In this document: positions 16,608-58,877 of the stretch, one piece after another
Numbering within the stretch: the stretch's first letter is position 1
How the letters are laid out: each line of letters opens with the position of its first letter
IMG/VR virus record: IMGVR_UViG_3300025816_001375
Location: 1 to 61,022 of that record
Direction: 5' to 3' (one strand)
DNA: 61,022 nucleotides
Origin: a virus
The notes under the pieces: generated by a model
What the model saw: the letters and a program-made list of their open reading frames with translations, nothing else
The model's database searches: none
What the model was told of the DNA's origin: nothing
Made by a program: the position numbers and the translations under genes

Positions 16608-16612
16608 ATAGT

Positions 16613-22925: not shown

Positions 22926-23605
22926 AAAAACTAATAGTAAGCGGCTGTAGTTGGGGTGATAGTCATTTCTTTTCACCTTTTCATCCTGAGATGGATTGTG
23001 ATTGGCCTAAATGGCCTGAACTATTGGCAAAAAAACTAAACATGGAGTGTGTTAATCTTTGTAAATGTGGTGCAGGACAAGAATACATTTATTCATCTAT
23101 ATCAGATTATATACAAAGCATACCTAAAGATGAAATTGGTACAATTATGGCTGCTTGGTCTACAGCGCCTAGACGTTGTTATAGTATAGGCAACAGATGG
23201 ACAAATGATAGACAAGATATAAGAGGCGACCTAAAATATTGGATAGAAAGAAGTATAAGATATCAATATGCTTTTCAAAATCTTATGGAACAATACAAAC
23301 TACCGTATATACATTTTCAAATGATTAGTTTATATAAAGGTCATTTGTGGGAGATAAGAAGAAAACAAAATGTTAATGAACAATATTTACAAAAATTAAG
23401 AAAAGATACACTAGACTTAATTAAAAATACTAACTACAAATTTAATGATAAATTTTTAGGGTGGCCTGTAGATGAGGAATTAGGTGGTAAAACAATTGAA
23501 ATGGGTGTATTAAGTGAAGAACACAGAATATCAGAACTGGATAGACATCCTAACGCAAAAGGGCAACAGAAAATAGCGGAGTACTTATATGACAGGTTGG
23601 GATAG
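22922..23605 (+). CDS. SGNH/GDSL-like hydrolase
   Basis: A 227-residue cytoplasmic protein. Block I is 'VSGCSWGDS' with the Ser nucleophile candidate near residue 9. Block V is 'DRHPNAKGQQKIAEYLY', with the catalytic D-x-x-H pair near residues 206-209. 'KCGAGQEYI' fits block II (Gly). SGNH enzymes remove or add acyl groups on sugars and lipids. In a glycan locus, O-acetyl transfer or removal on a sugar is the natural guess. A paralogue on the minus strand at 51110 shares 'GCSW', 'RWPSMLADKL' and 'HPN..G..KIA'. The ATGA overlap with the SPASM gene keeps it in the operon. Confidence 0.7.
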   Translation: MKKLIVSGCSWGDSHFFSPFHPEMDCDWPKWPELLAKKLNMECVNLCKCGAGQEYIYSSISDYIQSIPKDEIGTIMAAWSTAPRRCYSIGNRWTNDRQDIRGDLKYWIERSIRYQYAFQNLMEQYKLPYIHFQMISLYKGHLWEIRRKQNVNEQYLQKLRKDTLDLIKNTNYKFNDKFLGWPVDEELGGKTIEMGVLSEEHRISELDRHPNAKGQQKIAEYLYDRLG

Positions 23606-24641
23606 AGATTATCTAGCAAACAAAGATGAATACTTAAAACTTTTTGATAATGTTATGCAAAAAGAAAACGAAAGAAACGTTGAGTTTTTAGAAAAGAATA
23701 TTACAAGTATTATAAAAAGAAAGTATGCTGTAACATGTGCTAGTGGTACAGACGCTTTACGTTTTGCTCTAATGGCACTTGATTTAGGACCTGGTGATGA
23801 GATAATGACTACAAACTTTTCATGGATATCTACAGCGTCTTGTATATCAATGGTAGGTGCAACACCTGTATTTTGTGATATTGATTTAGAAACTTATCAT
23901 ATGTCAATTGATAGTATTAAACGTATGTATTCTGATAAAGTAAAGGCAATAGTGTATCCACATCTGTTTGGTAATATATCTGATATGACAGAAATACAAA
24001 ACTTTTGTGAAGATAAGAATATAAAACTAGTAGAGGATGCTTGTCAATCTTTTGGTGCAAATAGAGGTGGTCAATATGCAGGTACATATGGTGATATTGC
24101 AACGTTAAGTTTTAATGCAAACAAACCTGTTGCAGGTATATCAGGTGGTGGCGCTGTTTTACTAGACAATAAAACTCAAGCAGACTTTATTAGAAAATTA
24201 AAAAGACACGGTAACAACGAAGTATTAGGTTATAACTCTAAAATGTTGGCAATCAATGCTGAGTTTATAAATTTCAGAATATCTAAAATGCACGAATGGC
24301 AAGATAAAAGATTTAGAGTTGCAAAGAGATATGATAATTTATTAAAAGACCTTGTAACAATACAAAAGGTTGATGAAACAGTTAATCATTGTTATCACAA
24401 ATACGTTATAAGATTAGAGAATAAAGAAATAAGAGATACCTTAAAGAAAAGACTAGGTGCAGCTGTACACTATCCTAATCCTATATCGGAAAATGTAATG
24501 TATAATTCTATTATACATAGAAAAGATAGCTGCTTGAATAGTCAACAAATATGTGATACAATACTAACATTACCTATTCATCCATATTTAACAAATGATG
24601 AAATAGATAATACTTGTAATATAATTATGGCAACAGTATGA
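23589..24641 (+). CDS. DegT/DnrJ/EryC1/StrS-type sugar aminotransferase
   Basis: A 350-residue PLP enzyme that transfers an amino group from glutamate to a nucleotide-linked keto-sugar. 'CASGTDALRFAL' near residue 50 binds the cofactor phosphate. 'VEDACQSFGA' (D150) contacts the pyridine nitrogen. The Schiff-base lysine is K179 in 'LSFNANKPVAG'. 'PHLFGN' and 'GDIATLSF' are family signatures. Length is a little under the usual 365-400. The start overlaps the SGNH gene by 17 nt. It implies that an amino-deoxy sugar is made during infection. Confidence 0.9.
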   Translation: MTGWDRDYLANKDEYLKLFDNVMQKENERNVEFLEKNITSIIKRKYAVTCASGTDALRFALMALDLGPGDEIMTTNFSWISTASCISMVGATPVFCDIDLETYHMSIDSIKRMYSDKVKAIVYPHLFGNISDMTEIQNFCEDKNIKLVEDACQSFGANRGGQYAGTYGDIATLSFNANKPVAGISGGGAVLLDNKTQADFIRKLKRHGNNEVLGYNSKMLAINAEFINFRISKMHEWQDKRFRVAKRYDNLLKDLVTIQKVDETVNHCYHKYVIRLENKEIRDTLKKRLGAAVHYPNPISENVMYNSIIHRKDSCLNSQQICDTILTLPIHPYLTNDEIDNTCNIIMATV

Positions 24642-24955
24642 ATGAAATAATAATTAGTCCATCTTTTAAAACTTTCTGTTATTTTGATAATAACAATAAT
24701 ATGATTGACATAACAGATAAAATACCTTTTAGACTTTTAGAGTTAATTAAAAAAATGAGATATATCTTTGGTAATGATATAGTGCTTGATAAGTCTTTGA
24801 TAACAGATGACATTGAGGATATCTATCATTATATAATAGAAAAAGCCTATGAAAGATCAGACTACATATTTGAAGAAATAAATTTTAAAGATAAAGCAAA
24901 AGAAAAATTGTTATCTGCTTTCAATAAATTCTTTTTTGAAAAGTTTAATAAATGA
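24638..24955 (+). CDS. Hypothetical operon protein
   Basis: A 105-residue protein of no recognised family. It starts MNEIIISPSFKTFCYFDNNNNMIDITDKIP and is otherwise helical and rich in Lys/Glu/Phe. Short ATGA overlaps on both sides (24638 and 24952) show that it is translated with the aminotransferase and the radical SAM protein that follows. Its small size and position before an rSAM gene would suit a carrier or recognition partner. It has no leader-peptide or RRE pattern I can identify. Confidence 0.65.
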   Translation: MNEIIISPSFKTFCYFDNNNNMIDITDKIPFRLLELIKKMRYIFGNDIVLDKSLITDDIEDIYHYIIEKAYERSDYIFEEINFKDKAKEKLLSAFNKFFFEKFNK

Positions 24956-25806
24956 AAACATTAAAAGAAATACAAGAAAACTATTTAGCCATAGACTTTT
25001 TTATGTCTATGTCTTGTAATAAAGATTGCCATTATTGTACAAGTTATACTTTAGAAATGAGAAACTTGACGGTTGATATAGATTTCCTAAAACAAACACT
25101 AGACTATTTAAAAAATTATAAGATACGTGTTTGTCTTCTAGGTGGTGAGCCAGGCCTAATTAAAAATTTAGATGATGTAATTGCTGAAGTTAAAAGCAGA
25201 CCTAATCACGTATGCTCAGTACTATCAAACTCCTTTGTACGTAAAAGATATCCACATATACTAAAAGATCCTGATATACTTTATATTGAACATAATATAT
25301 TAGATTTCTATGAAAACGAAATTAAAAAACTTGGTAGTTTAGATTTACTACCACCTTACGGTTTCATACAACCAAATGAATACAATAATTACAATCTATG
25401 CGTAAAGACACCTAATTATTTTAAATACAAAGATAACTTTCCAGAAGAAATGAAACAGTTAGATCACAAAAATACAATGTGGAAATCATTTAATGGTAGA
25501 ACACCTAATAAAGATGATGTATTAGCAGTACATACTCAAGCTGCTGAAATAGATCGTAAGATGTGTGCAGCTTTTCCTATGGTACCTGTTATTAATTTTG
25601 AAACAAGAAAACTTGTTCATTGTAGTAAGAAGTTTGCCAATAACGCAATTCATTCTAAAACATTTGACATAACACAGGAAAATATAGACAAGATGATGAA
25701 TTTCAGATTATTTAAATATGAAAATTATTGTAAAAATTGTATGGAATGGGTGCAACCTAAAGGACATTTTCCAATATCAAAATATGCGAGTGTATTAAAT
25801 GATTAA
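24952..25806 (+). CDS. Radical SAM protein with C-terminal Cys cluster
   Basis: A 284-residue radical SAM enzyme distinct from the GQxSDP family. CNKDCHYC (C22, C26, C29) binds the catalytic cluster, and a canonical GGEP motif is at residues 64-67. A C-terminal set, C205, C224 ('LVHC'), C260 and C263 ('NYCKNC'), probably holds an auxiliary cluster, so it is a fused version of the split pairs upstream. It overlaps the carbamoyltransferase gene by 8 nt. Substrate unknown; the context suggests a sugar or peptide in the same pathway. Confidence 0.82.
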   Translation: MKTLKEIQENYLAIDFFMSMSCNKDCHYCTSYTLEMRNLTVDIDFLKQTLDYLKNYKIRVCLLGGEPGLIKNLDDVIAEVKSRPNHVCSVLSNSFVRKRYPHILKDPDILYIEHNILDFYENEIKKLGSLDLLPPYGFIQPNEYNNYNLCVKTPNYFKYKDNFPEEMKQLDHKNTMWKSFNGRTPNKDDVLAVHTQAAEIDRKMCAAFPMVPVINFETRKLVHCSKKFANNAIHSKTFDITQENIDKMMNFRLFKYENYCKNCMEWVQPKGHFPISKYASVLND

Positions 25807-27310
25807 AATAAATGCAGTAGCTTTAAATCTACACGACCATAATGCTTATGATGGTGTATTTCATAATCAAAGAGAAAGACATACTAGATTTAAACACAAT
25901 TTACCTTATCACGCTGAGGCATACAATCATCAATCAGACATATTAAATCCTGGTGATTATAGACTAAATGATGAATTTACTGAAAAATATTTTAAAAAAC
26001 CTGATAATGGTATATTAGCATTTACTTATACTTTTGGAGGTATAAGAAAATCTAAAGAAGAACTACTAAAGACTGTTTTAAAAGGCCACGATGAAATATT
26101 TGATTATAATCCTAAAACTTTATGGGATAATTATTACAAAGACAATATTTACTTTATAGACCATCATCAATCTCACGCAGCTTATGCCTTTTTAAATTCA
26201 GGTTTTTTAGAGTCAGATATACTTGCTATTGATGGAATAGGTTCTAAATTTAGATGTGTTTTTTTTGATAAGGATTATAACTTGATAGATTTATCAGATA
26301 AATTACCTATTGGTTGGTTATGGAATCATATGTCAAATCTTACAGGTTTTGGCACACTTGGTGCAAGTAAACTTATGGGTAAAGTTGGATATGGAAAATA
26401 TAGCGACTACTATTACAACACCTTTGAAATTATATTTGACGGTCCTATTACAGAAAGAAAACAAGAACATTTTAAAGAAATTGATATAGATAAACATGGA
26501 ATTGATGATCTTGCATTTACCTTACAAAAATTTACTATTGATAAAATTAAAGAGTATGTATTACCACTAAAAACAACTAATAAATTATGTATTGCTGGCG
26601 GTGTCGCATATAATGGATATATGAATGAAATGTTTACTGAATATTATGATGATGTATTTGTACCACCTGCTATAGGTGATGAAGGACAAGCTATAGGTGT
26701 TTATCAACACGCTGACTATATGTTAAATAAAAATATACATAAATCAAACTTATATGCTGGTAAAGAATACGAATTTACTGGTGATGAAAAAGTAGATTAT
26801 AGAGAAGTGGCACAAGCGATTGCTGATGGTAAAATAGTAGGTTGGTTTCAAGGCAAATCAGAAAGTGGTAATCGTGCATTGGGTAATAGAAGTATTTTAG
26901 CAGACCCACGTAATCCTAATATTAAAGATATTATTAATAGTACAATTAAAATGAGAGAAGATTTTAGACCATTTGCACCTGCAGTATTAGAAGAACAATA
27001 TAAAGAATATTTTGATACAAGATTGCCTAGTCCATATATGAGTAGAATATGTAAAGTTAAAACCGATAAAGTTCCTGGTATCACACACGTTGATGGTACG
27101 GCCAGAATACAAACAGTTAATAAAAACGATAATGAAAAGTTTTATAAATTATTATTAGAGTTTTGGTGCATTACAGGTATACCTATGTTATTAAATACAA
27201 GTTTTAATTGTCAGGAACCAATTGTTGAAACACCTAAACAAGCCATCAGAACTTTTAAAAGAACAGCACTAGACTTGCTAGTTATAGGAGATTATATAAT
27301 AAGAAAATGA
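25799..27310 (+). CDS. NodU/CmcH-type O-carbamoyltransferase
   Basis: A 503-residue carbamoyltransferase that moves a carbamoyl group from carbamoyl phosphate, via carbamoyl-AMP, to a hydroxyl, usually on a sugar. The N-terminal Kae1-like half shows 'DHHQSHAAYAFLNSGF' (metal-binding His residues), 'AIDGIG', 'LCIAGGVAYNGYMNE' and 'PPAIGDEGQAIG'. The C-terminal half shows 'QGKSESGNRALGNRSILADPR' and 'REDFRPFAPAV', family hallmarks, and ends with 'LLNTSFNCQEPIVETP'. Somewhat short of the 550-600 usual. Known in several marine phages. It overlaps the methyltransferase by ATGA. Confidence 0.92.
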   Translation: MIKINAVALNLHDHNAYDGVFHNQRERHTRFKHNLPYHAEAYNHQSDILNPGDYRLNDEFTEKYFKKPDNGILAFTYTFGGIRKSKEELLKTVLKGHDEIFDYNPKTLWDNYYKDNIYFIDHHQSHAAYAFLNSGFLESDILAIDGIGSKFRCVFFDKDYNLIDLSDKLPIGWLWNHMSNLTGFGTLGASKLMGKVGYGKYSDYYYNTFEIIFDGPITERKQEHFKEIDIDKHGIDDLAFTLQKFTIDKIKEYVLPLKTTNKLCIAGGVAYNGYMNEMFTEYYDDVFVPPAIGDEGQAIGVYQHADYMLNKNIHKSNLYAGKEYEFTGDEKVDYREVAQAIADGKIVGWFQGKSESGNRALGNRSILADPRNPNIKDIINSTIKMREDFRPFAPAVLEEQYKEYFDTRLPSPYMSRICKVKTDKVPGITHVDGTARIQTVNKNDNEKFYKLLLEFWCITGIPMLLNTSFNCQEPIVETPKQAIRTFKRTALDLLVIGDYIIRK

Positions 27311-27993
27311 TTGATAAGATAGATTTAAATTTATTTAAAAGAATTATACACGAAGGCAGACACAACGTTGATCTTTTAGACTCGTATAGTATAAATCAAT
27401 TTAGAGCAAAAGAAAGACTAATTAATCACGTTGAAAAATTAGGCATTGTAAACGAAAGTAGTGAGATAGTGATTATGGGTGGTTGGTATGGTAGTATTTT
27501 TATACCTGCCTTTAAACATGTAAAGAAGATTACCTTAATAGATTCAGATAAAGAAGTTATTAACATTGCTACTAATAGACTATTCTATGATTATGATAAT
27601 GTTGAATTTATATGTGATGATGTATTTGAAACATTTAAAGAAAAACAATTTAAAAATGTTGACTTGTTTATTAATACTGCTTGTGAACATATGCGACCTA
27701 TGAAAGAATGGGGACCATTAGGACCTAGATCAAAACATTTTAATTCAAAGTTTGGTGTACCTGTTACACGTAAAGAAGCATGGTGGGAGAGAGTTGCACC
27801 TACACACTTTGCGTTTCAATCTAATAATATGTTTCATATACCCACCCATATAAATTGTTGTAATACTATTGAAGAATTTAAAGAACAGCTGCCAAATAAA
27901 GAATTTAATGGCGTTGAATCTAAAGTGCTTGTAGAAGATAAAATTAAAGATGAACGTGGAACAAGATTTTTATTAATAGGTGAGATGAGATGA
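27307..27993 (+). CDS. Class I SAM-dependent methyltransferase-like protein
   Basis: A 228-residue Rossmann protein. 'EIVIMGGWYGSIFIPAF' is motif I (a GxxxG-like loop), 'KITLIDSDKEVINIA' contains the acidic residue for the SAM ribose, and 'VEFICDDVFE' is motif III. 'VDLFINTACEHM' is in motif IV position. No nucleic-acid binding domain is seen, so a small-molecule or sugar substrate is likely. The gene is sandwiched by ATGA overlaps between carbamoyltransferase and glycosyltransferase. Confidence 0.72.
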   Translation: MIDKIDLNLFKRIIHEGRHNVDLLDSYSINQFRAKERLINHVEKLGIVNESSEIVIMGGWYGSIFIPAFKHVKKITLIDSDKEVINIATNRLFYDYDNVEFICDDVFETFKEKQFKNVDLFINTACEHMRPMKEWGPLGPRSKHFNSKFGVPVTRKEAWWERVAPTHFAFQSNNMFHIPTHINCCNTIEEFKEQLPNKEFNGVESKVLVEDKIKDERGTRFLLIGEMR

Positions 27994-31348: not shown

Positions 31349-32290
31349 TTAAGATTTTATAATTCGTAAATAATATGTGTTACTTGTTACCGCTGAACCA
31401 TCAGGAAACTCTTGTGCTCTATAATCATCAGCGTTTACAAACAATTGTTGATAGTTACCAGAACCATTTAAAATAGTATCTGCAATACCAGAACCTCTTG
31501 TATTACCTGTTGCTACAGTTCCTAACGTGTAACTTAAAGCGTATCCATCACTTGATGAAGCAGCTGTATATCTAACCCATTCTTGTAGTAATGAATCAAA
31601 TGCAGCCGTTGTAAATTCTTTAACGTCATTAGAACCATCCAAGAAGAACGGTTCGGTATATGTTGCACTTACACCATCAATTCTATGTAAGTAATAGTTT
31701 GTAACTGTTGTTGGTTGGTCAAGTGTTTCAGGAATACCACCAGCAGTATATAAAGATGTATCTGCTCTTGTATCTGAAAAGATTGGTGTTGAAGCACCAG
31801 ACACTTCAGTTGAACCTGAAACAGAAGCTGTAGTTGCAATATGATATGTTCCAGCTTGTGATGATGTTACTGAACCAGAAGCTAATAAGTCAATTGCAGG
31901 ATGTAAAAATGTATCTTTTACATCTGTTAAAGACATCGCTTGAATTTGACCACTTGCGTTATAATACACAGGCCAAGTTTTACCAGTATCACTTGTAGGT
32001 GTTACTGAAGCATTTGCTGAACTAATTTTGTCGTATGTTACTGTAACTGTACTTGGTTCTGCTGTTGTGGCTTCACTTGGGAATGCTGTTGTACTTGTTG
32101 ACTGTGCTCCCGCTTGCTTTCTTGTATCTGTAATACTTCCGATATTACCACCAGAACCTACAACGGATAAAGCAACACTAGGGTTTAGTGAATATTGATA
32201 GACTGCTCTAGCTACGATTGCATCGACCATAGTAGTGTCCATCTCTCGTAAGTCTCCGCTTACGTTATATAAAGGTTTTCTTACTGCCAT
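31349..32290 (-). CDS. Virion structural protein, marine T4-like type
   Basis: A 313-residue protein starting MAVRKPLYNVSGDLREMDTTMVDAIVARAVYQYSLNPSVALSVV. The end is 'EFPDGSAVTSNTYYLRIIKS'. This architecture, a helical start followed by a Ser/Thr-rich beta region, is common in tail proteins encoded near the DUF4815 gene in marine T4-like phages. No enzyme motif is seen. A late promoter (32351-32358) lies 60 bp upstream. The exact position on the virion is unknown. Confidence 0.68.
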   Translation of the reverse strand: MAVRKPLYNVSGDLREMDTTMVDAIVARAVYQYSLNPSVALSVVGSGGNIGSITDTRKQAGAQSTSTTAFPSEATTAEPSTVTVTYDKISSANASVTPTSDTGKTWPVYYNASGQIQAMSLTDVKDTFLHPAIDLLASGSVTSSQAGTYHIATTASVSGSTEVSGASTPIFSDTRADTSLYTAGGIPETLDQPTTVTNYYLHRIDGVSATYTEPFFLDGSNDVKEFTTAAFDSLLQEWVRYTAASSSDGYALSYTLGTVATGNTRGSGIADTILNGSGNYQQLFVNADDYRAQEFPDGSAVTSNTYYLRIIKS

Positions 32291-49230: not shown

Positions 49231-49506
49231 ATGACAAATGAACAATTAAGAAACGAAATTATTAACGTTGCAAAAAAAGTTGGTGCCACAGATGTCAATG
49301 TAGTTTGTGGATCATTGTTTTGTAAATTTAATAAAAATATTCATAACGTGATGGCTGAAAATCTTAAAACTGTTTTACAAAAGTTTTTTGATAAAAAGAA
49401 ACCAAATGATACGTTAGTTAAAATGTCAGGTGCATTACCTGATTATGAATATGCCTACGACTTTATGCCTGTGGTAGATTTTAGATTAAACGAATACGGA
49501 ATATAA
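49231..49506 (+). CDS. Small hypothetical protein (91 aa)
   Basis: A 91-residue protein preceded by AAAGGAGAA, a strong Shine-Dalgarno 8 nt before the ATG. It starts MTNEQLRNEIINVAKKVGATDVNVVCGSLFCKF. No family recognised. The last base of its stop is the A of the next ATG (49506), so the hydrolase gene is translated with it. Confidence 0.6.
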   Translation: MTNEQLRNEIINVAKKVGATDVNVVCGSLFCKFNKNIHNVMAENLKTVLQKFFDKKKPNDTLVKMSGALPDYEYAYDFMPVVDFRLNEYGI

Positions 49507-50711
49507 TGAAAAAACTTTTTATATACTATCTGTTATTTACATTTGTACTATCTATTGGTGTTGTTTTTGCTGATCATGGCAATGAGAAATATTGTTTTGA
49601 TTGTATGCACAAGTACAAAATTGGTGATAAAAAAAATAACACATATGAGTTTGAGTTTGATTTGCAAACTAACGAATTATCAAAAACAGTTAATGAACAA
49701 ATATCAGACAAAAAAACAGGACTTGTAAGTTATCTATTATGGGAAAATAATAAGATTATAGTTGATCAAAATAGAAAAAGTAAATACACAGGACCATATC
49801 CTTCACACTCAATTGGTAAAAGTTTAGTATCTGTTGTTACAGGTTATGCTTTATGTGGTGGTTATATTAATCATACAATTTTTGATAGAATAGATTATCC
49901 AACTGTAGCTAATACTTTATATGAAAATCAAAGATTGATTGATTTACTCAATATGCAGGCAGGTGATGATGAAATATTAGGTGAAAGAATTTACGGATGG
50001 GACAACCCTATCAAAGGTAAAGGTCCTAATGTTAATACAATACCGATTAAAACTGCTATGAAAAGATACTTTAAAAATAAAGATGGTTTAGAACCTGGTA
50101 CTTATTATAATTATAGTGCTATGACAACGAATGTTATAATTAACTATGTTATATACAAAACTGGTGATGATTGGGAAAAATTACTTCACAAAGTATTTGT
50201 TGAAGACGCAAAAGTTAAAAAAAGAGTTTATTTCGGCAAAACATTAAGAATAAAAGATGGTAACAGAAAAGGTGAATATGGTAGATATTCTTTTTGGGCT
50301 CAAAGATATGATTATTTAAGAATTGCAAAATTAATATTAGATCATTGGAATAATGATACTTGCGTTGGTAAATATTTAAAGACAATGTATGAAAATAGAA
50401 TTGATAAACAGTTTATTCAGTATAGTAAGTTTAGAGGTAACCATAGTGCCACTCAAAGTTATGGTGGTCAATTTCACTTTGATCCGATTGGTATTAATGA
50501 CAGACCTATTTTAATGATGGATGGTGCTTGGGGTCAACAAGTAGTTATTGATTTTGATAATAATAGAATTATTACTGCTCATTCTACAGATAGACATTAC
50601 GACTATTACAGTTTGATTTATTTACAACTAAATCAGGATGATGGACAAAGTAAGAGAAAGAAATGTAGAAAATACATTAGTGCTGAATATTTTGTATTAG
50701 AACCTTGTTAA
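49506..50711 (+). CDS. Secreted serine hydrolase of the beta-lactamase/PBP fold
   Basis: A 401-residue protein with a signal peptide (about residues 1-22, 'LFTFVLSIGVVFA'). The catalytic S-x-x-K is S102-I-G-K105 in 'YPSHSIGKSLVSVV', and the second motif is Y203-S-A ('YYNYSAMTTN'). The order and spacing are those of class C beta-lactamase-like esterases and D-Ala carboxypeptidases. 'GWDNP', 'YGGQFHFDP' and 'DGAWGQQVVIDFDNNRIITAHSTDR' are further family elements. It probably acts in the periplasm on a peptide or ester bond, for example in the cell wall. It is the last gene of the plus-strand early-type cluster and is an unusual phage cargo gene. Confidence 0.82.
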   Translation: MKKLFIYYLLFTFVLSIGVVFADHGNEKYCFDCMHKYKIGDKKNNTYEFEFDLQTNELSKTVNEQISDKKTGLVSYLLWENNKIIVDQNRKSKYTGPYPSHSIGKSLVSVVTGYALCGGYINHTIFDRIDYPTVANTLYENQRLIDLLNMQAGDDEILGERIYGWDNPIKGKGPNVNTIPIKTAMKRYFKNKDGLEPGTYYNYSAMTTNVIINYVIYKTGDDWEKLLHKVFVEDAKVKKRVYFGKTLRIKDGNRKGEYGRYSFWAQRYDYLRIAKLILDHWNNDTCVGKYLKTMYENRIDKQFIQYSKFRGNHSATQSYGGQFHFDPIGINDRPILMMDGAWGQQVVIDFDNNRIITAHSTDRHYDYYSLIYLQLNQDDGQSKRKKCRKYISAEYFVLEPC

Positions 50712-51109: not shown

Positions 51110-51973
51110 TTATATGCTAGTATTTATATTATTTAAGATAATATTTGCTATTTTATTATGACCGTTTTGATTAGGATGATTATCTTTTTTATATTCTGTG
51201 AAGGTAGTTAAGTCAGATATAAAATCTGTTTTCTTATTTAATTTATCATATAATGAATAACCATCAAGTTGCATTAAGGTTGGCCAACCTATAAAATTAT
51301 TTTTATCTATCGAATGATAAAGCTGAAAATCTACCAATGCACTAGACAATTCTTTGTTAAAATCATTTTGAACTACGTCTAGGTTTCGTATTGTATCTGC
51401 TCTTTGTGATGAACCAAATGTGAAATCTAAATTAAACTCCGTTCCTAAATTTGATAATTGTTGTAAAGGTACAGCTTGTACCATCTTATATGGTATATTA
51501 TTAAATTTTAAAAAGGTTTGTAGTAAGTACATATATCTAATTGATTGTTTTACCCTATAAAACATATCGCCTCTTAAAGGGTCTGTGTATAATACACTAT
51601 CCCAAATATAATCTTTATTATACCTTTTTTTATCTCGGGTTGAAAAAAGCCCATTCACGTAATAATCATTTTCGTTTTTCCTATATTCAAAATCTGTACG
51701 CTTTGCCTCACTCCAAGCAACAATAACTAAACCAATATTATTTCTTTTGTTTTCATTCATTGATGAAATATTATCAATTAAAGAAGAGCAAATATATTCG
51801 TTTCCTGAAGCTATTTTTCCATAATTTATTAAATTCATATCTAACTTATCAGCTAACATACTTGGCCATCTATTATAATTACGTACAATATTATCTGAAA
51901 CATTTATATCTTCAGATAATTGATTTGGGTCAGTCCAACTACAGCCACTTACTATTAATATCTTTTTATGCAT
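51110..51973 (-). CDS. SGNH/GDSL-like hydrolase, paralogue of 22922
   Basis: A 287-residue protein with block I 'VSGCSWTD' and block V 'DNHPNQNGHNKIA', plus 'RWPSMLADKLDMNLINYGKIASGNEYI', which aligns with the copy at 22922 ('KWPELLAKKLNMECVNLCKCGAGQEYI'). It differs by about 60 extra residues in the middle. SGNH enzymes act on acyl esters of sugars or lipids. The ATG (51973) overlaps an upstream in-frame ATG of the plus-strand gene by four bases (CATG), so the two genes are divergent with no gap. Confidence 0.7.
   Translation of the reverse strand: MHKKILIVSGCSWTDPNQLSEDINVSDNIVRNYNRWPSMLADKLDMNLINYGKIASGNEYICSSLIDNISSMNENKRNNIGLVIVAWSEAKRTDFEYRKNENDYYVNGLFSTRDKKRYNKDYIWDSVLYTDPLRGDMFYRVKQSIRYMYLLQTFLKFNNIPYKMVQAVPLQQLSNLGTEFNLDFTFGSSQRADTIRNLDVVQNDFNKELSSALVDFQLYHSIDKNNFIGWPTLMQLDGYSLYDKLNKKTDFISDLTTFTEYKKDNHPNQNGHNKIANIILNNINTSI
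51121..51128 (-). promoter_or_regulatory. T4-type late promoter inside a coding end
   Basis: Exact TATAAATA on the minus strand, within the last codons of the SGNH gene; it would drive the coiled-coil gene starting at 51053. An 8-bp match inside coding AT-rich DNA can be chance. Confidence 0.4.
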
Positions 51974-51985
51974 GAATATATTTAT

Positions 51986-51993
51986 TATAAATA
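51986..51993 (+). promoter_or_regulatory. T4-type late promoter on the plus strand
   Basis: Exact TATAAATA, 5 nt before the preferred ATG of the nitroreductase-like gene (51999). The arrangement matches the near-leaderless late promoters of the gp25 and 16557 genes. Confidence 0.55.
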
Positions 51994-51998
51994 AAAAT

Positions 51999-52664
51999 AT
52001 GAATATTGATGATATTTTAAAAAAAAGAAAACACGTTTATGAATTTGAAAGTGAAATAATTCCTAGTAAAGATTTAATTAATTCACTTTTAAAACGAACT
52101 TGGAAAGTTACTCCTTCAAAAAATCAATTTATGGCATATACAATACACATTGTAGGCCCAAATGAAAAATCTATTAAAGAATCAATTTATAATATATGTA
52201 CAACAAATGAGGCACAGACTAATACCAACAACACTACTATTGATAAACCTAGATTAAATGAAAATTTACTTTGTTTATTAACTGCACCTTACAATTTAAT
52301 TTTTACAAACAGACTTGAAAATGAACCTAACAAGGAACAAGAATACTTAATTAGTAAAGGTGTTTATTATGAAGCTGTTGATCCTAAAAAATTTGAAACT
52401 TTATATTCAACCAATTCTATCGAAGTTGGTATGTTTGTAAAGATACTTACAACATTGTGTTTAGAAAACAATTTAGATGTTACTTATACAAAGTGTTTTT
52501 CTGCAAATTACAAAGACTGGATAAAAACAATACCGTTTGTAAAAACAAGTCCAATAATGATTATGTCTATTGGTAAAGGAAAAACATTTAAAGAACCAAA
52601 AAAGTATAATGGAGAAATAACTGACCTACGACCAAACTTTGAAAGAATTATTAATTGGATATAA
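51999..52664 (+). CDS. Nitroreductase-like flavoprotein (first copy)
   Basis: A 221-residue protein when read from ATG 51999, which aligns with the start of the second copy at 54810 (MNIDDILKKRKHVYEFE against MWEDLIKKRRQVRAAWD); the upstream ATG at 51972 would overlap the divergent gene. 'IPSKDLINSLLKRTWKVTPSKNQF' fits the FMN-binding P-S-x-x-N loop of nitroreductases and 'EVGMFVKILTTLCLENNLDVT' the second conserved region. Such proteins reduce, oxidise or rearrange small substrates with FMN and can also oxidise azolines in peptide biosynthesis. Two copies flank the SPASM-rSAM gene. Confidence 0.7.
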   Translation: MNIDDILKKRKHVYEFESEIIPSKDLINSLLKRTWKVTPSKNQFMAYTIHIVGPNEKSIKESIYNICTTNEAQTNTNNTTIDKPRLNENLLCLLTAPYNLIFTNRLENEPNKEQEYLISKGVYYEAVDPKKFETLYSTNSIEVGMFVKILTTLCLENNLDVTYTKCFSANYKDWIKTIPFVKTSPIMIMSIGKGKTFKEPKKYNGEITDLRPNFERIINWI

Positions 52665-53231
52665 ATGAAAACTGTTATATTATTAATTGACTTTGAAGGA
52701 CATAAAATACTTGCTGATGATTATGTAAATGATTTAAGATATAGTACCCTTCAACAAATAACTGAAAACACATCCATAGATAGGAATAGTTGTATTATAT
52801 TATCTATTGGTAATAGTATTAGAGATAAGAAATTGCAAGAAATACGAAATATTGCTGTAAATGAGAGATGGAAATGGCTAGATATTCAAAATGTTAATTC
52901 TAGTGTAGAAGATATTGAACAATTATTACTACAAACACTTAACTTTCAAATGCAAAATTACAACACTCAAATTGTCATAGGAGGTTGCAATACCTCGGGA
53001 TGTGTGATAAAATCTAAATTGTGTAGTGCAAAATATTTTTCAGAAAAAAAATATAAAACAAATATAGTATTACCTATGTGCGCTGAATATGAAGCTTCAG
53101 GAATAAATGATATAGAGAAAAATATGAAAGCATTTGCTAGAGTTTATAATTATGTAAAAAGAAATAAGTTAAATTATATTGATATAGTAGAAGTAATTAA
53201 CGATATTGAATTTATAAAAATAGATACTTAA
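52665..53231 (+). CDS. Isochorismatase-like protein (tentative)
   Basis: A 188-residue protein. It starts with a hydrophobic strand ('KTVILLIDFEGH') and has 'QIVIGGCNTSGCVIKSKLCSAKYFSEKKYKTNIVLP', where the GG-C-x-x-S-G-C pattern is like the catalytic Cys region of isochorismatase-fold hydrolases. The expected Asp and Lys of the family triad are D9 and, less clearly, a Lys in the middle. The gene directly follows the nitroreductase (no gap), so it should act with it. It might equally be an unrelated Rossmann-like protein. Confidence 0.4.
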   Translation: MKTVILLIDFEGHKILADDYVNDLRYSTLQQITENTSIDRNSCIILSIGNSIRDKKLQEIRNIAVNERWKWLDIQNVNSSVEDIEQLLLQTLNFQMQNYNTQIVIGGCNTSGCVIKSKLCSAKYFSEKKYKTNIVLPMCAEYEASGINDIEKNMKAFARVYNYVKRNKLNYIDIVEVINDIEFIKIDT

Positions 53232-53250: not shown

Positions 53251-54810
53251 ATGAGTGACTTAAATAATAAGCCTGTGAAAGATATTGATGATATGCACGA
53301 TAAACAGGTTGAGAAAATGCTTACAAAGGGTGGTCCAGGTGATCGCTCAACACCTGGTAATGTAAATACTGAAGAATGGTGGAAATGGGAAAATCTATCA
53401 GATAAAACAAAACTCAAAGCTACTAAAACTATACCTGGACAACCACCAGAAGACAAGTCAATTTTACAACAAGCAAGAGATAAAGATATATGGTTTTGTA
53501 CAATACCATTTACACAAGTCTATAATGAGATAAGTGGTAAATACAGAGCTTGTTGTTTTGGTAAAGATGCTGAACACGAAACTATTAAAAATACCACGTT
53601 AAAAGAATGGATGGTTGATAGTGAATATATGAATAGTATTCGTAAAGAAATGCTTGATCCTAAAACAGACTTTAAAGCAGTTAATGATATATGCCGAAGA
53701 TGTAGAAGTGATGAGGACAAATACGGTAGAAGTAGAAGAACAAACTGTTTAAAAATTCATACTAACGATAAAGAGTTTTGGGATAATATTCAAAAAAATG
53801 TTGAACTATACAATGCAAGTGGTAAGTGGGCCTTTGATGAAAGAATTTTAGAAATACAATTAAAAGTATTTGGTTCAGAATGTAACCTTGACTGTTTTAT
53901 GTGTGTACACGCTAATTCAACAACTAGACAACGTGTTGCTGAAAAGGGTGTTTGGAATGATGCTGTATTTGGTGAACGAGGTAAAGTTAGAGAAGACTAT
54001 ATGAAACTTGTAATGGCAGATAAAACTGAAGGTGTTACTGAACAAGTACTTGAATTATTACCTTACGTTAGAAGTATTAAAGTGATTGGTGGTGAACCAT
54101 TAATTATGAAAAAACATTATGAGTTATTAGAAAAGGTTATTGAAAGTGGCCATGCAAAACATATCTATTTAAAATATCAAACCAACTTAACTAAAACTAA
54201 AAAAGGTAGACACAATATATTTAATTACATTCCTCATTTTAAAAATGTATCTATGGTCGCTTCAGTAGATGGTATTGGTAAAACTATTGAATATATGAGA
54301 AGAAGAACTGAATGGGAAGAAGTTGTAGAAAATATAGAGATGTGTCGTAAACACCCTAACGTTGTCGTTGACTTTAATGGTTTAGTTTCTAATCTTTCAG
54401 TTATGAGATTTTACGAAGTTATTGATTGGTGTAAAGACAATCCTGTTATTGACCAATTGAATTGGGCAATGATTGACAAACCTAAACATTTAAGACCTAA
54501 TAACTTACCAGAAAAAATTAAGAAGTCGTTAATACCAAAATATAAAGATTGGCCTGATATAATAGCTGCATTGGAAAGACCTGCTGATCCAGATGTAGAT
54601 TTACAAAATGTATTTGATTATATGTTAAAGGCAGATAAATTCTATGAAGGCACAAAATGGGAATCACATTTGTTTGAAGTGTTTCCTGAACTAGAAGAAT
54701 TTTATGATCCTACTAAACATAGAGATCATAACGAACAAGCAAAAATATTTCAAACATGGGATAAATCAGTAAAAGAAGCTGAAGAAGCTTCAGATACAAA
54801 TATAATATAA
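53251..54810 (+). CDS. Radical SAM enzyme with N-terminal SPASM/twitch-like domain (519 aa)
   Basis: A fused protein with an unusual order. Residues 80-165 hold an auxiliary-cluster region: C83, C101, C102 ('YRACCFGKD') and C148, C151 ('ICRRC'), with the 'TLKEWM' helix as in the free-standing subunits. The radical SAM core follows at C211, C215, C218 ('CNLDCFMC') and a canonical 'IGGEPLIMKKHYELLE'. 'MVASVDGIGKTIEYMRRRTEW' is part of the barrel. Similar 'twitch' radical SAM proteins are known in marine phages. Substrate unknown. The stop overlaps the second nitroreductase start. Confidence 0.87.
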   Translation: MSDLNNKPVKDIDDMHDKQVEKMLTKGGPGDRSTPGNVNTEEWWKWENLSDKTKLKATKTIPGQPPEDKSILQQARDKDIWFCTIPFTQVYNEISGKYRACCFGKDAEHETIKNTTLKEWMVDSEYMNSIRKEMLDPKTDFKAVNDICRRCRSDEDKYGRSRRTNCLKIHTNDKEFWDNIQKNVELYNASGKWAFDERILEIQLKVFGSECNLDCFMCVHANSTTRQRVAEKGVWNDAVFGERGKVREDYMKLVMADKTEGVTEQVLELLPYVRSIKVIGGEPLIMKKHYELLEKVIESGHAKHIYLKYQTNLTKTKKGRHNIFNYIPHFKNVSMVASVDGIGKTIEYMRRRTEWEEVVENIEMCRKHPNVVVDFNGLVSNLSVMRFYEVIDWCKDNPVIDQLNWAMIDKPKHLRPNNLPEKIKKSLIPKYKDWPDIIAALERPADPDVDLQNVFDYMLKADKFYEGTKWESHLFEVFPELEEFYDPTKHRDHNEQAKIFQTWDKSVKEAEEASDTNII

Positions 54811-55574
54811 TGTGGGAAGATTTGATAAAGAAACGAAGACAAGTAAGAGCTGCATGGGATAACGAAAAGATTCCAAGTAAAGAAGAAGTCAATACATTAT
54901 TAAAAAAATGTTTAGAGTTAACACCATCTAAAAATAATTTACAACCATTTAAAATACACGTCATAGGACCTGATAATAAAAAAGAACTAGATATTATTAC
55001 AGGTATATGTGCTTTACATAAAACAGGTAGTGTTGCAAAGTATGAATTAGAAATGGATACTAATACAGATTTGGGTTTACATAATAAACGTCCACCATAT
55101 ACATTATTGTTTACCGTAAGATTAGCCAATGATAATCAGTTTACTGCTGAACATGAAAATAGACATAAGCAAACTGATATAGATGTAGGTAGAACAGATA
55201 AAAGATTTTCACAATCTGATCCTAATACGTTTAGAAGAACTGCAAATAGAAATCTTGCCTCATTAGAAGTAGGTATGTTTATCATGTCATTGACAGCTCT
55301 TGCATTAGAAAAAGGATTATCTGTTTCATTTATACAATCTTGGCCTATATGGGATTGGGATGAAGAACAAAATAGATACTTTATAGAAAAGAACAAATAT
55401 GGTAAACAATGGTCAGAATTGCCATGGGTAAAAGAAGCACCATTACATGTATTACAACTAGGTTATAAAGCAGATTTTGATGACCCTCTAAAAACTAACT
55501 CTACAGACCCTAAAGGAGAGAATTGGGAAAACAAGTGTTCTCCAGATGATATAATAGAATTTCACAATGCTTGA
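54810..55574 (+). CDS. Nitroreductase-like flavoprotein (second copy)
   Basis: A 254-residue paralogue of the protein at 51999. 'IPSKEEVNTLLKKCLELTPSKNNLQPFKIHVIGP' is the FMN loop, 'RNLASLEVGMFIMSLTALALEKGLSVSFIQSW' the second conserved region, and 'ELPWVKEAPLHVLQLGY' the C-terminal strand. It is longer by an insertion around residues 100-140. The gene starts on the last base of the SPASM-rSAM stop codon, so the two products should be made together. The -35 box of the next promoter overlaps its stop. Confidence 0.72.
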   Translation: MWEDLIKKRRQVRAAWDNEKIPSKEEVNTLLKKCLELTPSKNNLQPFKIHVIGPDNKKELDIITGICALHKTGSVAKYELEMDTNTDLGLHNKRPPYTLLFTVRLANDNQFTAEHENRHKQTDIDVGRTDKRFSQSDPNTFRRTANRNLASLEVGMFIMSLTALALEKGLSVSFIQSWPIWDWDEEQNRYFIEKNKYGKQWSELPWVKEAPLHVLQLGYKADFDDPLKTNSTDPKGENWENKCSPDDIIEFHNA

Positions 55575-55604: not shown

Positions 55605-55937
55605 ATGAAAGAAATGGATCCTAAAGATATAAAGATTAAACCTCGTTGTTTAACATACGAGCCAAAGAGTTATCATAAGCCTGCAGCTTACACAGCAGAT
55701 GGTTTTATGTTACCTTGTTGTTGGTTAGATGATCCTAAAAACGACCATAGTGTAGAGGAAGTATTTCATTTAAAAGATGAACATCTTGCATTAAAGAATA
55801 ATGATAAGTTAGAGGACATATATGGTTCTAAAGAATGGGAACACTTCTTTGATTCACTATTAAATAATCCAAGTTGTACACCAAAACAATGTCAATACAA
55901 GTGTGGTAATAGAGAAAAGGATAATTATAAAATATGA
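55605..55937 (+). CDS. Free-standing SPASM/twitch-like Fe-S subunit, third copy
   Basis: A 110-residue relative of the proteins at 21570 and 22551. C15, C38, C39 ('GFMLPCCW'), the 'DIYGSKEWEHF' helix and C91, C96, C100 ('CTPKQCQYKC') match, with one extra Cys at the end. Here the SPASM-like gene comes before its rSAM partner, with an ATGA overlap (55934). Its transcript is probably leaderless. Two-subunit modification enzyme is the likely role. Confidence 0.78.
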   Translation: MKEMDPKDIKIKPRCLTYEPKSYHKPAAYTADGFMLPCCWLDDPKNDHSVEEVFHLKDEHLALKNNDKLEDIYGSKEWEHFFDSLLNNPSCTPKQCQYKCGNREKDNYKI

Positions 55938-56692
55938 GCGAACTAACAGACTTTTATATTCGTAATCAACGTTTCTCATCACCTAATATGGATTTATCTC
56001 ATAGGTGTATATTACGTTGCCCACAATGTTTACGACAAAAGGTAGAAGGTCTACCTAGAATAGCAAGATCATTTGATATTGATCCTAATGAGTTTAGAAA
56101 AATACTATCCTACTATGAACATCAAATAACCTTTTGTGGTCAAATATCTGACCCAATCTATCACCCACAATTCTTAACATTTTTAGAAATGATGGATGGT
56201 TTAGGTAAAGGTTTAAGAGTTGCAACTAATGGTACTAACACAAAAGGCATGGATGAAAAGTGGTGGGAAAAAGCATATAGTTATGGTCTAGGAGAAAATT
56301 GTTGGTACTTTGGTGTAGATGGTTTAGATAAGAAATCAGAATTGTATCGTATCGGTTCTAACTTTGAACAAGTATGGGAAACTATGAAAATGGGTGTTGC
56401 CATGGGTCACCCGATAGTTTGGCAATATATAATATTTGGGTATAACGAACATGAGATTGAAAGAGCAAAAGAGATGGCTGAAGAAGAAGGCATAACTTTA
56501 TTACTAATTAATACTAATAGAGGTTTTGATCCTAGAAGTAGAAATTTAAGAAAGAACGTACAAGAGGCATATGCTAATTTTCCTAAACCAAGTGATAAAC
56601 ACGTAGTAAAGAAAATAAAAAAAGAAACTTATTTTAATGTAACACCAGAGTTAACACATTGGAGAAAAGTAAGACATGGAGAAATTAAATAA
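55934..56692 (+). CDS. Radical SAM protein, third copy of the GQxSDP family
   Basis: A 252-residue protein. CILRCPQC (C25, C29, C32) binds the catalytic cluster. 'ITFCGQISDPIYHPQFLTFLEMM' replaces the usual GGE region, as in the copies at 20867 and 21905, and 'FGVDGLDKKSELYRIGSNFEQVWETM' and 'VWQYIIFGYNEHE' align with them. It ends without its own auxiliary cluster. It overlaps the PP-loop gene by one base. Though this neighbour resembles QueC, this protein lacks the features of QueE. Confidence 0.85.
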   Translation: MSELTDFYIRNQRFSSPNMDLSHRCILRCPQCLRQKVEGLPRIARSFDIDPNEFRKILSYYEHQITFCGQISDPIYHPQFLTFLEMMDGLGKGLRVATNGTNTKGMDEKWWEKAYSYGLGENCWYFGVDGLDKKSELYRIGSNFEQVWETMKMGVAMGHPIVWQYIIFGYNEHEIERAKEMAEEEGITLLLINTNRGFDPRSRNLRKNVQEAYANFPKPSDKHVVKKIKKETYFNVTPELTHWRKVRHGEIK

Positions 56693-57537
56693 TGAATATA
56701 ACATATAATAACATAACAATTCCTTTCTATTCAAACATAGCAGATTTAATGGAAACATCACCTTATAAAGACAGAGCAAAGGCTGATGTAGCATTAGATG
56801 AAAATGGTATACCTAAAACAGTAGTTGCTTCATTATCAGGCGGTTGTGACTCTGCGGCCGCATTATATTTAACTGCCAAACATTTCCCTAACATTGACAT
56901 TTATCCTTTAACATTTAGAGATGTACATGGACCAAAAGATGCTGATGCAGCTGCTGAAATAGTTGAGTTTATAAAGAATAGATTTCCTAAGGCAAAGATA
57001 CACGAACATACAATTGAAAACTATGATGATAAGGATCCTGTACACTATGTAAAAGCACAAAAATTTATAGACGAAAGACCAGAATACAAAACGTTAAACC
57101 TACAACAAATGTCAAAGGCCAATCAAATAGATGATGGTTCGGATGCTTTTATGGCACGTTTAGATAGACCTTTACGTTTAGATGGTATGTCTGCAAATCC
57201 ACCTATGGAAGTAAGAGTAAAGTTTAGTGACTATGCAATAAAAAAGTTTCCTAATATTAATTTTGATAAAAATAACATTGCTAGAATAAGAGGTGAAGCA
57301 AGACGTGATGTTGAAAATGAACCTGAACTAAAATACAATGTATATAAACCTTGGGTTAATTTAAACAAAAGATTTATTGCAAGTATCTATAAAGAAGAAG
57401 GTTTAATGAAAGACCTATATCCTATTACACGTAGTTGTGTTGGAGGTCCTAATCAAACTAATAACTTTACTGAATGGTGTTGGCAATGTTTTTGGTGTTA
57501 CGAAAAAGCTTGGGCATTTGATTTATTACCTAATTAG
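56692..57537 (+). CDS. PP-loop ATP pyrophosphatase with C-terminal Cys cluster (QueC-like)
   Basis: A 281-residue protein. The PP-loop is S49-G-G-C-D-S54 ('VVASLSGGCDSAAALYL'), which binds ATP and adenylates a carboxyl or carbonyl group. At the C-terminus C249, C263, C266 and C269 form a C-x13-C-x2-C-x2-C site, similar to the zinc site of QueC (7-cyano-7-deazaguanine synthase). Length is above QueC (about 230). It follows a radical SAM gene with one base of overlap, and in queuosine biosynthesis a radical SAM enzyme and QueC act in succession; here the rSAM is not QueE-like. Other PP-loop roles, such as amide or thio transfer, remain possible. It converges with the sulfotransferase-like gene. 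Confidence 0.7.
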   Translation: MNITYNNITIPFYSNIADLMETSPYKDRAKADVALDENGIPKTVVASLSGGCDSAAALYLTAKHFPNIDIYPLTFRDVHGPKDADAAAEIVEFIKNRFPKAKIHEHTIENYDDKDPVHYVKAQKFIDERPEYKTLNLQQMSKANQIDDGSDAFMARLDRPLRLDGMSANPPMEVRVKFSDYAIKKFPNINFDKNNIARIRGEARRDVENEPELKYNVYKPWVNLNKRFIASIYKEEGLMKDLYPITRSCVGGPNQTNNFTEWCWQCFWCYEKAWAFDLLPN

Positions 57538-58387
57538 TATATCCGTAATACTTAAACTCTTTTTCATATTGTTCATTATACTTGTCTTGTATTTCAGCCA
57601 AATGTTCACCAAAATAAGTTTCATATTTAATAGTAAAAGGTTTATAAGGTTGAGTCCATTCACCATGTAAAGTACTATTTGGTATATAATATTCCTGAAA
57701 GAACATACTCTTTAAACTTTCATCATTACAATCCTCTAACCATAAATTACGTGTATTTAATTTAATACTAGTTTGATCATAATAAGGTATTATAATTTCG
57801 TTTAGATAACGAACACTTGTACAATATTGTCCAAAGAAATAAGCATCCCATTTAAACACAGGTTTATACTTTAACACAGTTGATTTTAAAGTGTCTTCAA
57901 GGTTAACACCTATATTAGTTTTATTATGCCAATTATGTAGTTTCTCTCTTTCAGTTGAACCTATATCCCCAGCTCTATCTAAACTATCTCTTACTGCTTT
58001 ATGAAACAACCAACTTATAAAAGCCTTCCACAAATACTTTCTACGTAGTATTACAATTTGATAACCACTATAGAACTCCTGAAACCAATCAAATACACAA
58101 TGTACATTTGGACGAGAACGTATATGAATTGGTGTCATTAATTGATGAGAATGAACATTCATAAACATATTTAAATTCCATGTATTACGGCAGTACTCTA
58201 AAAACTCTATTCGTTTAGAAATAGGTTGCATAGGTTTAGTAGGATTAACATCTAAAAATTCGTTTGTAAAAGATACAGGAGGTAACAAACCATTATGTTT
58301 GTATATCTCTCTTATAAAGTGAGCCACATAATGAGAGCCATTACGAGGCATAGAGATTAATATAGGTGTTTTCGTTCTTTCAAGCAT
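57530..58387 (-). CDS. Sulfotransferase-like protein
   Basis: A 285-residue protein. 'ILISMPRNGSHYVAHFIREI' matches the 5'-phosphosulfate loop of PAPS-dependent sulfotransferases (PRxGSx), and 'VILRRKYLWKAFISWLFHKAVRD' the 3'-phosphate region (R......S). I take the ATG at 58387 (MLERTKTP) as start; an upstream TTG at 58405 adds six residues. It would transfer sulfate to a glycan or other hydroxyl, consistent with the glycan-modifying genes elsewhere in the window. It overlaps the PP-loop gene by 8 nt at the 3' end. A related non-catalytic use is possible. Confidence 0.65.
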   Translation of the reverse strand: MLERTKTPILISMPRNGSHYVAHFIREIYKHNGLLPPVSFTNEFLDVNPTKPMQPISKRIEFLEYCRNTWNLNMFMNVHSHQLMTPIHIRSRPNVHCVFDWFQEFYSGYQIVILRRKYLWKAFISWLFHKAVRDSLDRAGDIGSTEREKLHNWHNKTNIGVNLEDTLKSTVLKYKPVFKWDAYFFGQYCTSVRYLNEIIIPYYDQTSIKLNTRNLWLEDCNDESLKSMFFQEYYIPNSTLHGEWTQPYKPFTIKYETYFGEHLAEIQDKYNEQYEKEFKYYGYTN

Positions 58388-58453
58388 ATAGTCAATTCCG
58401 CACAAGTTAACATTAGAGTATTTATCACAGTAAGCGAAAAATTTTTAGGCGTT

Positions 58454-58555
58454 TTATATACAATCACAAATGGTATTGGCCACCGCTAAAACAAAGACAT
58501 ATAGTATATAACTAGCAAAACAACCAAAGAGTATCTTTTCCCACCAACTAAACAC
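58454..58555 (-). CDS. Tiny membrane protein (33 aa, GTG start), tentative
   Basis: A 33-residue frame beginning with GTG at 58555 inside the end of the IscA gene; it runs W-W-E-K-I-L-F-G-C-F-A-S-Y then a hydrophobic stretch to the stop at 58454. GGGGA lies 8 nt upstream. One membrane helix is evident. The start overlaps the IscA stop, as in coupled genes. I am unsure because the frame is short and begins with GTG. Confidence 0.4.
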   Translation of the reverse strand: MFSWWEKILFGCFASYILYVFVLAVANTICDCI

Positions 58556-58877
58556 TAAACGATTCCCCACAGCCACACGAACTCTTACTATTAGGATTCG
58601 TTATCTTAAACTCACTATTAAACTCACCCTCTACCCAATCTAACGTAGTCCCTAGTAAGTATAATTCTAACTCTAAACTGGCCACTAATACGTTACCTAA
58701 TAAACAATCAGTATCTTCCCTTGTATCAGTAGTAGACCACTTATATTCAAAGCCTGCACATCCACCACCCTTAATGTCTAATCTCACATAACGAGTGCCT
58801 GCCTTATTTGCTATGTAAGTTAATCGTTGTATTGCGTTATCTGTTAGCTCTAGCATGGTTCCTTTGGGTTTCAACAT
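58548..58877 (-). CDS. iscA: IscA/HesB-type iron-sulfur cluster carrier
   Basis: A 109-residue A-type carrier. The three conserved cysteines are C40 ('GGGCAGFEY') and C101, C103 ('SSCGCG'). 'RLDIKGGGCAGFEYKW' and 'WVEGEFNSEFKITNPN' are the family core. It delivers [2Fe-2S] or [4Fe-4S] clusters to target enzymes and is found as cargo in several T4-like marine phages. An internal ATG at residue 8 (position 58856) has AAAGGA just before it and may be the true start. In this genome its targets could be the radical SAM proteins. Confidence 0.9.
   Translation of the reverse strand: MLKPKGTMLELTDNAIQRLTYIANKAGTRYVRLDIKGGGCAGFEYKWSTTDTREDTDCLLGNVLVASLELELYLLGTTLDWVEGEFNSEFKITNPNSKSSCGCGESFSV

Follow-up and report, generated by a model that had tools for sequence, protein, structure and literature searches.

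A virus family of PP-loop proteins with an apparent QueC-type scaffold and its own substrate signature, encoded beside a split radical SAM/SPASM pair

Results

Genes of the locus

The window, a virus record of 61,022 bases, carries a PP-loop gene just downstream of a split radical SAM/SPASM pair (Table 1). The encoded protein has an SGGCDS loop at residues 49–54 and five cysteines, C52, C249, C263, C266 and C269, the last four of which are spaced exactly C-x13-C-x2-C-x2-C; none of 20000 shuffled versions of the protein contained any C-x(5-20)-C-x2-C-x2-C arrangement. Both features had been pointed out in the first-pass annotation, and both are exact in this ORF; each of the 26 aligned phage members of the family retains the loop (as SGGxDS) and the x13 interval.

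Table 1. Features of the PP-loop cassette, its surroundings and the second cluster (positions in the window)
Feature	Position	Strand	Remarks
PP-loop protein (main finding)	56692–57537	+	281 aa, ATG start; apparent QueC-type scaffold with a remodelled substrate signature
Radical SAM protein	55934–56692	+	252 aa; Pfam Radical_SAM 30.6 bits, cut-off 29.5; Cx3Cx2C at C25/C29/C32
Split SPASM/twitch-like partner	55605–55937	+	110 aa; conserved cysteines; 27% identical to 21570–21908
Nitroreductase-family protein	54810–55574	+	254 aa; Pfam Nitroreductase 30.3 bits, cut-off 23.5
Radical SAM protein with N-terminal twitch domain	53251–54810	+	519 aa; NCBIfam NF033640 309.9 bits, cut-off 170
188-aa protein	52665–53231	+	Repeated in related cassettes
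Relative of nitroreductase-like protein	51972–52664	+	230 aa; ~28–32% matches in nitroreductase slot of related loci
DUF6071 / SGNH-like protein	51110–51973	-	287 aa; Pfam DUF6071 37.9 bits, cut-off 27
A-type Fe-S carrier (SufA/ErpA/IscA-like)	58548–58877	-	TIGR00049 82.6 bits, cut-off 58.8
Second cluster	20867–27993	+	Two split radical SAM/SPASM pairs, SGNH-like, DegT aminotransferase, 105-aa protein, radical SAM (284 aa), NodU-type carbamoyltransferase, methyltransferase-like
The two split radical SAM/SPASM pairs of the second cluster	20867–21908 and 21905–22925	+	Related one-ORF pairs in L077, L102

The genes of the pair and the PP-loop gene are tightly packed: the SPASM-like and radical SAM genes overlap by 4 bases, and the 3' end of the latter shares one base with the PP-loop start codon. 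The three motif cysteines of the radical SAM protein and C68 are invariant in all 35 distinct rows, and in the SPASM-like partner C15, C38, C39, C96 and C100 are invariant in all 38 (a sixth cysteine, C91, is found in 20 of the 38). Pfam SPASM itself does not match this partner; it does match the related protein encoded at 21570–21908 (28.6 bits, cut-off 21.5). In contig L077 a comparable second pair forms one ORF (1070–2122, 350 aa), which has no NCBIfam match and in which radical-SAM-like and SPASM-like halves can be made out by eye; another single ORF, in L102 (4573–5709, 378 aa), is 37% identical to the radical SAM half. These one-ORF versions, together with the identity to the SPASM-matching protein, support the interpretation of the pair as a split SPASM enzyme. 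The QueE models of NCBIfam match neither protein of the pair, and no QueE match was found in the sets of ten window proteins that were searched. The earlier description of the neighbor as a non-QueE radical SAM protein with a separate SPASM partner therefore holds, in view of its radical-SAM motif, the conserved cysteines and the lack of a QueE model match.

Among the other cassette genes, that for the 188-aa protein, which has no Pfam, PHROG or NCBIfam match, recurs as a homologue next to the PP-loop gene in 13 of 75 loci. The A-type carrier adjoining the cassette could possibly supply clusters to the radical SAM proteins. Two further genes recur in the neighborhood. A 291-aa ORF with GTG/TTG starts (57530–58405, minus strand) has no family match; many relatives encode a version of it, at 24–97% identity, 3' of their PP-loop gene, and its N-terminal PRNGS stretch may be reminiscent of sulfotransferases. 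The other gene (49506–50711, plus strand), present in most related loci at 31–95% identity, encodes a 401-aa protein that starts like a signal peptide and matches neither Pfam nor PHROG families; its SHSIGKS motif may be reminiscent of serine beta-lactamase/PBP-like proteins.

Distribution and gene order

The PP-loop proteins form a conserved virus family. Successive IMG/VR searches returned 16, 34 and 44 loci, and queries with the SPASM gene reached more distant loci. The alignment used here contains 26 representatives, of which the other 25 are 40–89% identical to the window protein, two truncated loci and near-identical copies having been left out; 48 of its columns are invariant, including SGGxDS, D77, D83, RxDGMxxNP, P220, K226, TxSC, the four cysteines and WAF. 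Among cellular genome contigs a first search found no PP-loop relatives, and a further search gave one match, L077, a contig of a metagenome-assembled genome (MAG); when 398 genomes from the phylum of this MAG were searched with a diverse profile, the MAG itself was the one match. Two other proteins of the L077 contig, one of 942 aa that is tail-fibre-like and one of 304 aa that by eye is similar in its start and length to the window's 31349–32290 protein, are the reason for taking it as a phage contig binned into the MAG. No relatives were found among sequenced phages, either for three different PP-loop members or for the SPASM gene, or among plasmids for the one PP-loop member queried, and no publication on this PP-loop family was found in a literature search made mostly without subscription papers and preprints.

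Seen from the split SPASM gene, the gene order is strict: 53 of 55 IMG/VR loci also hold the radical SAM and PP-loop genes, and in the remaining two the contig ends 31 bases past the SPASM gene. Since many of these contigs are near-identical, the independent loci are fewer than 55 (there are 38 distinct SPASM rows, the window included). The radical SAM and PP-loop genes mostly come directly behind the SPASM gene, and six loci have 125–128 or ~317 bases between the SPASM and radical SAM genes; identity to the window proteins across the set is 61–100% for SPASM, 60–100% for radical SAM and 36–100% for the PP-loop protein. The converse association is weaker, as the SPASM gene is present in 62 of 75 PP-loop loci, a count in which overlapping loci of one contig enter repeatedly and contig ends truncate several of the loci. 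In L011–L019 and L047 the PP-loop gene does not adjoin this SPASM gene: its neighbors in L011, L012 and L015–L019 are a different split pair and genes of the SGNH-like, DegT and radical SAM 284 types, and in L047 it is placed after a twitch radical SAM gene.

Family assignment by profiles and structure

Against the Pfam QueC family (PF06508) the window protein scores 20.3 bits, below the gathering cut-off of 22, and it stays below the cut-off of every PP-loop family model. The QueC profile matches 17/17 members (best E 2e-5) and NAD_synthase 16/17 (best E 2.1e-6), with fewer matches for the others. Further comparisons used cellular controls comprising 24 QueC proteins (from 28 loci, 4 of them without the expected pattern), 26 NadE proteins and 31 TilS candidate segments from 26 TilS loci. 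Full-length hhalign local scores are 62.1 for TilS, 49.6 for NadE and 43.6 for QueC, the TilS match consisting of 26 columns of the P-loop; judged by sequence, the P-loop half alone does not decide the family, its fit to QueC being no better than that to NadE or TilS. The C-terminal half scores 30.4 against QueC (56 columns, 27% identity) vs 10.6 against NadE and 16.0 against TilS; none of 100 column shuffles reached 30.4 (maximum 21.6), and a reversed profile gave 13.5. When the cysteine site was cut away, leaving residues 155–245, the QueC match was lost (12.1), which places the match in the P..K, TxSC and CxxCxxC region.

A single-sequence search of solved structures gave no match, and profile searches gave weak PP-loop matches only (ThiI 0.12, NadE 0.048, QueC 0.17). 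A first structural model, built from 8 sequences (pLDDT 69.9, C-terminus not ordered), returned NadE, LarE and NcsA with Foldseek, QueC being absent among the 50 matches listed; it was superseded by a 25-sequence model with a mean pLDDT of 88.6, in which residues 257–259 fall below 50 and the cysteine region lies at ~53–79. With VIA-align this model matches TilS (Z 14.5), LarE (Z 13.1), Cap9 (9nto_B; Z 11.9, rmsd 3.0, 162/181 residues, 19% identity) and QueC (3bl5; Z 11.3, rmsd 3.5, 163/199 residues, 16% identity), and the Cap9 (90% covered) and QueC (82%) alignments extend through the C-terminal site to model residues 277–278. Among viral predicted structures 12 matches have E<=0.001; four of these, the top two included, carry the name 7-cyano-7-deazaguanine synthase. 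The resemblance to QueC proposed at first sight is thus borne out by hhalign and structure comparison for the scaffold, including the C-terminal four-cysteine region; relative to QueC the phage protein has ~40 extra N-terminal residues.

Sulfur-transferring enzymes also enter these comparisons. LarE, NcsA and TtuA stand high in the results of the two structure comparisons, and an A-type Fe-S carrier is encoded nearby, as might be expected if the phage protein were a thiolation enzyme of the TtuA/NcsA/LarE/TtcA type whose cysteines hold an Fe-S cluster. The Z scores of 11–13 that TtuA, NcsA and LarE reach against the model are tied with those of other PP-loop families. The invariant cysteines of the 26-member alignment, however, are four only, confined to the C-x13-C-x2-C-x2-C site, the position and flanks of which match QueC. 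Sulfur transfer is accordingly regarded as quite improbable.

The QueC substrate signature and the preQ0 pathway

QueC is the final enzyme en route to the modified base preQ0. Its signature, in the available portion of PMC13329287, consists of SGGxDS, YxQxHxxE, VPxRN, YPDC and C(x)8CxxCxxC, and the mutants Y35A, R99A, Y131A and Y189A of E. coli QueC are described there as having lost function. Several elements are common to the phage family and the cellular QueC controls, namely SGGxDS, P[FWYL]x4K and C(6-25)CxxCxxC (each 26/26 and 24/24) and TxSC (26/26 and 15/24). By contrast, YxQxHxxE, VPxRN and YPDC each occur in none of the 26 phage members vs 23, 23 and 24, respectively, of the 24 QueC proteins, and TxSCY, which contains the residue equivalent to Y189 of E. 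coli, occurs in 0/26 vs 15/24. A first spacing of exactly 8 in the cysteine site is found in no phage member and in just 2 of the 24 QueC proteins, so that this spacing is no sharp test. RxDGMxxNP is invariant in the phage family (26/26) vs 0/24 QueC proteins; a mapping of the QueC YPDC loop onto this loop was considered and is not claimed, as the global alignment is not confident there. Together these observations suggest that the PP-loop protein is a QueC-type scaffold rebuilt for another substrate.

The first-pass annotation had also called for a search of the rest of the genome for queD and folE. PTPS (QueD), FolE and TGT were found in none of ten virus records, several of which are fragments and two of which span 165.7 and 170.8 kb, whereas the same search detected its controls in known genomes; nor was the Pfam QueC cut-off reached in any of the ten. 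These results bear on the simplest explanation, an ordinary QueC that makes preQ0 for tRNA or phage DNA while the host performs the upstream steps. In its favour are the match of the SGGxDS loop and the C-terminal metal-site region to QueC, the closeness of phage QueC proteins among viral folds, nearer than any others, and the possibility that CDG comes from the host. Against it, the family lacks in every member the YxQxHxxE, VPxRN and YPDC motifs and the Tyr after SC, positions at which E. coli mutants lost function (PMC13329287, in the portion available), and the companion genes were not found in the ten records. This explanation is therefore considered highly improbable. Modification of phage DNA with 7-deazaguanine was likewise rejected, since pathway genes were not found in the ten records and the QueC signature is missing. 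The earlier suggestion of a different, perhaps new, pathway stands insofar as the locus is unlike the known preQ0 route; that the PP-loop and radical SAM enzymes share one pathway goes further, and is suggested by their strict gene order.

Phage setting and the second cluster

The phages that carry the family are T4-like pelagimyophages, and their radical-SAM cassette is removable; the PP-loop cassette sits in a cargo site between baseplate genes. Pelagimyophages infect SAR11, which is among the most abundant bacteria. In the window the second cluster includes a DegT protein that resembles PseC (183.9 bits, below the cut-off of 423.5). Its NodU-type carbamoyltransferase is found in 8 of 10 PP-loop records tested, the window included (7 of the 9 others), the two records without it being 37.5 and 48.5 kb long, and the second cluster of G001 and G002 is colinear with that of the window. 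Upstream of this cluster lie three further genes: one for a 541-aa phage protein with a TonB-dependent receptor plug domain (16598–18223, plus strand; PF07715, 66.4 bits), one for a B12-binding-type radical SAM protein (18220–19473, minus strand), whose best match is a PhpK-like P-methyltransferase at 92.1 bits, far below the cut-off of 600, and one for an Aspartyl/asparaginyl hydroxylase-like protein (19470–19916, minus strand; PF05118, 26.6 bits).

The nearest isolate found, Pelagibacter phage Mosig EXVC030M (MT647606), has a comparable second cluster of about ten genes (radical SAM/SPASM, SGNH, DegT, radical SAM, a carbamoyltransferase 80% identical to that of the window, methyltransferase and GT8-like). 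A profile search of its 56–100 kb region found no PP-loop, twitch radical SAM or such SPASM gene, and its site before the gp5-type baseplate gene, which corresponds to the cassette site, holds different cargo. Mosig has the second cluster without the PP-loop cassette, and the cassette is therefore separable; conversely, the sugar-type cluster does not need the PP-loop gene.

These observations also weigh on the possibility that the PP-loop protein is an amino-sugar amidating or amidine-forming enzyme like WbpG, acting with DegT and the carbamoyltransferase in a surface-glycan pathway. The frequency of the carbamoyltransferase, the PseC-like DegT and the part of the family in which SGNH-like, DegT, radical SAM and NodU genes are the immediate neighbors of the PP-loop gene would all fit such a role, as would the proposal, in the part of PMC7029224 available, that LPS-type genes of pelagimyophages alter the host surface. 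It is nonetheless judged rather unlikely, because the CxxC(x)6CxC pattern of WbpG-type N-sugar amidotransferases occurs in none of the 26 phage members and because Mosig keeps the sugar-type cluster without the PP-loop gene or its companions.

Discussion

Proposed function

The preferred explanation, in which confidence is evenly balanced, is that the PP-loop protein is a virus-specific ATP pyrophosphatase ligase on a QueC-type scaffold, which adenylates and amidates a carboxylate other than CDG that comes from the split radical SAM/SPASM enzyme. The SGGxDS loop would bind ATP, and the four C-terminal cysteines would hold a structural metal, probably zinc, as judged from QueC and QatC. By analogy with QueC-type chemistry, the carboxylate would be adenylated with release of PPi and joined to ammonia or an amine to give an amide or a nitrile; the substrate is taken to be other than CDG because the residues used for CDG by QueC and Cap9 are missing. 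The split enzyme just upstream probably makes or finishes this substrate, the twitch radical SAM protein and the nitroreductase may carry out further steps, and the product may go into surface or glycan modification. The DegT, NodU-type carbamoyltransferase and GT8-like genes of the same phages, together with the cargo site, favor a product destined for the surface or for a glycan over a DNA base. A related formulation is advanced more tentatively, at a little under even confidence: that this is a virus-only lineage of the QueC superfamily working in a dedicated radical-SAM pathway, in which the pair makes a carboxylate that the PP-loop enzyme amidates or joins to a protein or a sugar.

SPASM-type radical SAM proteins often have peptides as their substrates, which lends some weight to a further possibility, that this QueC relative modifies proteins, as Cap9 and QatC do, and attaches a small molecule made by the radical SAM/SPASM enzyme to the N-terminal end of a protein of the phage or its host. 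Cap9 is also the best-covered structural match, with PFx4K common to both, and QatC is active although it too lacks the Tyr/Asp pair (PMC13279940, as far as its available text goes). PADLOC, however, found nothing relevant to CBASS or Qat in the PP-loop protein or in eight of the nine other window proteins (P0002 and P0004 gave weak PglX, CARF and viperin matches only), the loci examined revealed no obvious partner protein, and the QatC and Cap9 cysteine patterns occur in none of the 26 members, so that this possibility is considered unlikely. Membership of a CBASS- or Qat-type defence system was itself rejected, as PADLOC returned nothing for the PP-loop protein.

A virus-specific ligase as preferred here would be of interest in relation to two anti-phage systems in which QueC-type enzymes have been turned from base synthesis to protein modification (PMC13329287 and PMC13279940, both in part). 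If phages retain an enzyme of the QueC type that has a signature of its own and a fixed radical-SAM partner, the same scaffold would be seen in use on the phage's side as well; should the proposal be true, the QueC fold would have been repurposed once more, in addition to QatC and Cap9. The set is compact, at about four genes, and is suited to expression and assay.

Comparison with known systems

In cellular QueC (cluster 1 of PF06508) the phage family finds its likeness in SGGxDS, P[FWYL]x4K, TxSC and the C-terminal C..CxxCxxC..AF/GF region. It differs in lacking the four substrate motifs YxQxHxxE, VPxRN, YPDC and TxSCY, in its x13 spacing and in the lack of PTPS, FolE and TGT genes in the ten records.

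With Cap9 of type IV CBASS (PDB 9nto) the likeness lies in the structural match and in PFx4K (available text of PMC13329287), scored here as P[FWYL]x4K in 26/26 members. It differs in that CE(x)6CxxCxxCxD is found in 0/26, the RN and YxDC motifs are lacking and no CD-NTase was found beside the gene. QatC keeps SGGxDS and the four-cysteine site, has lost the Tyr/Asp pair that recognizes CDG and is still active, according to the portion of PMC13279940 available. The phage family is like it in keeping loop and site with the CDG-recognition residues replaced (PMC13279940, PMC13329287, in the parts seen). QatC differs in its ~400 aa with extensions, vs 281 aa in the phage protein, in a first spacing of C-x19 rather than C-x13, in C(x)19CGxCxxRR, which occurs in 0/26 phage members, and in other motifs; no PADLOC Qat match indicating qatA/B/D neighbors was obtained among ten window proteins. 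The cluster 4 pattern is likewise found in none of the 26 members.

The closest likeness in setting is to the marine phages of two studies: pelagimyophages with cassettes of radical SAM genes in their host-recognition regions (PMC7029224) and a T4-like marine virus with an A-type Fe-S carrier, which the window shares, and 12 radical SAM genes (PMC5332604). Phage type and cassette type are the same, whereas in the available portions of both papers no PP-loop or QueC-like gene is named and the cassette genes are assigned no function. What is known, then, is the QueC-type scaffold and the type of cargo region in such phages; what is new is a phage family with its own substrate signature.
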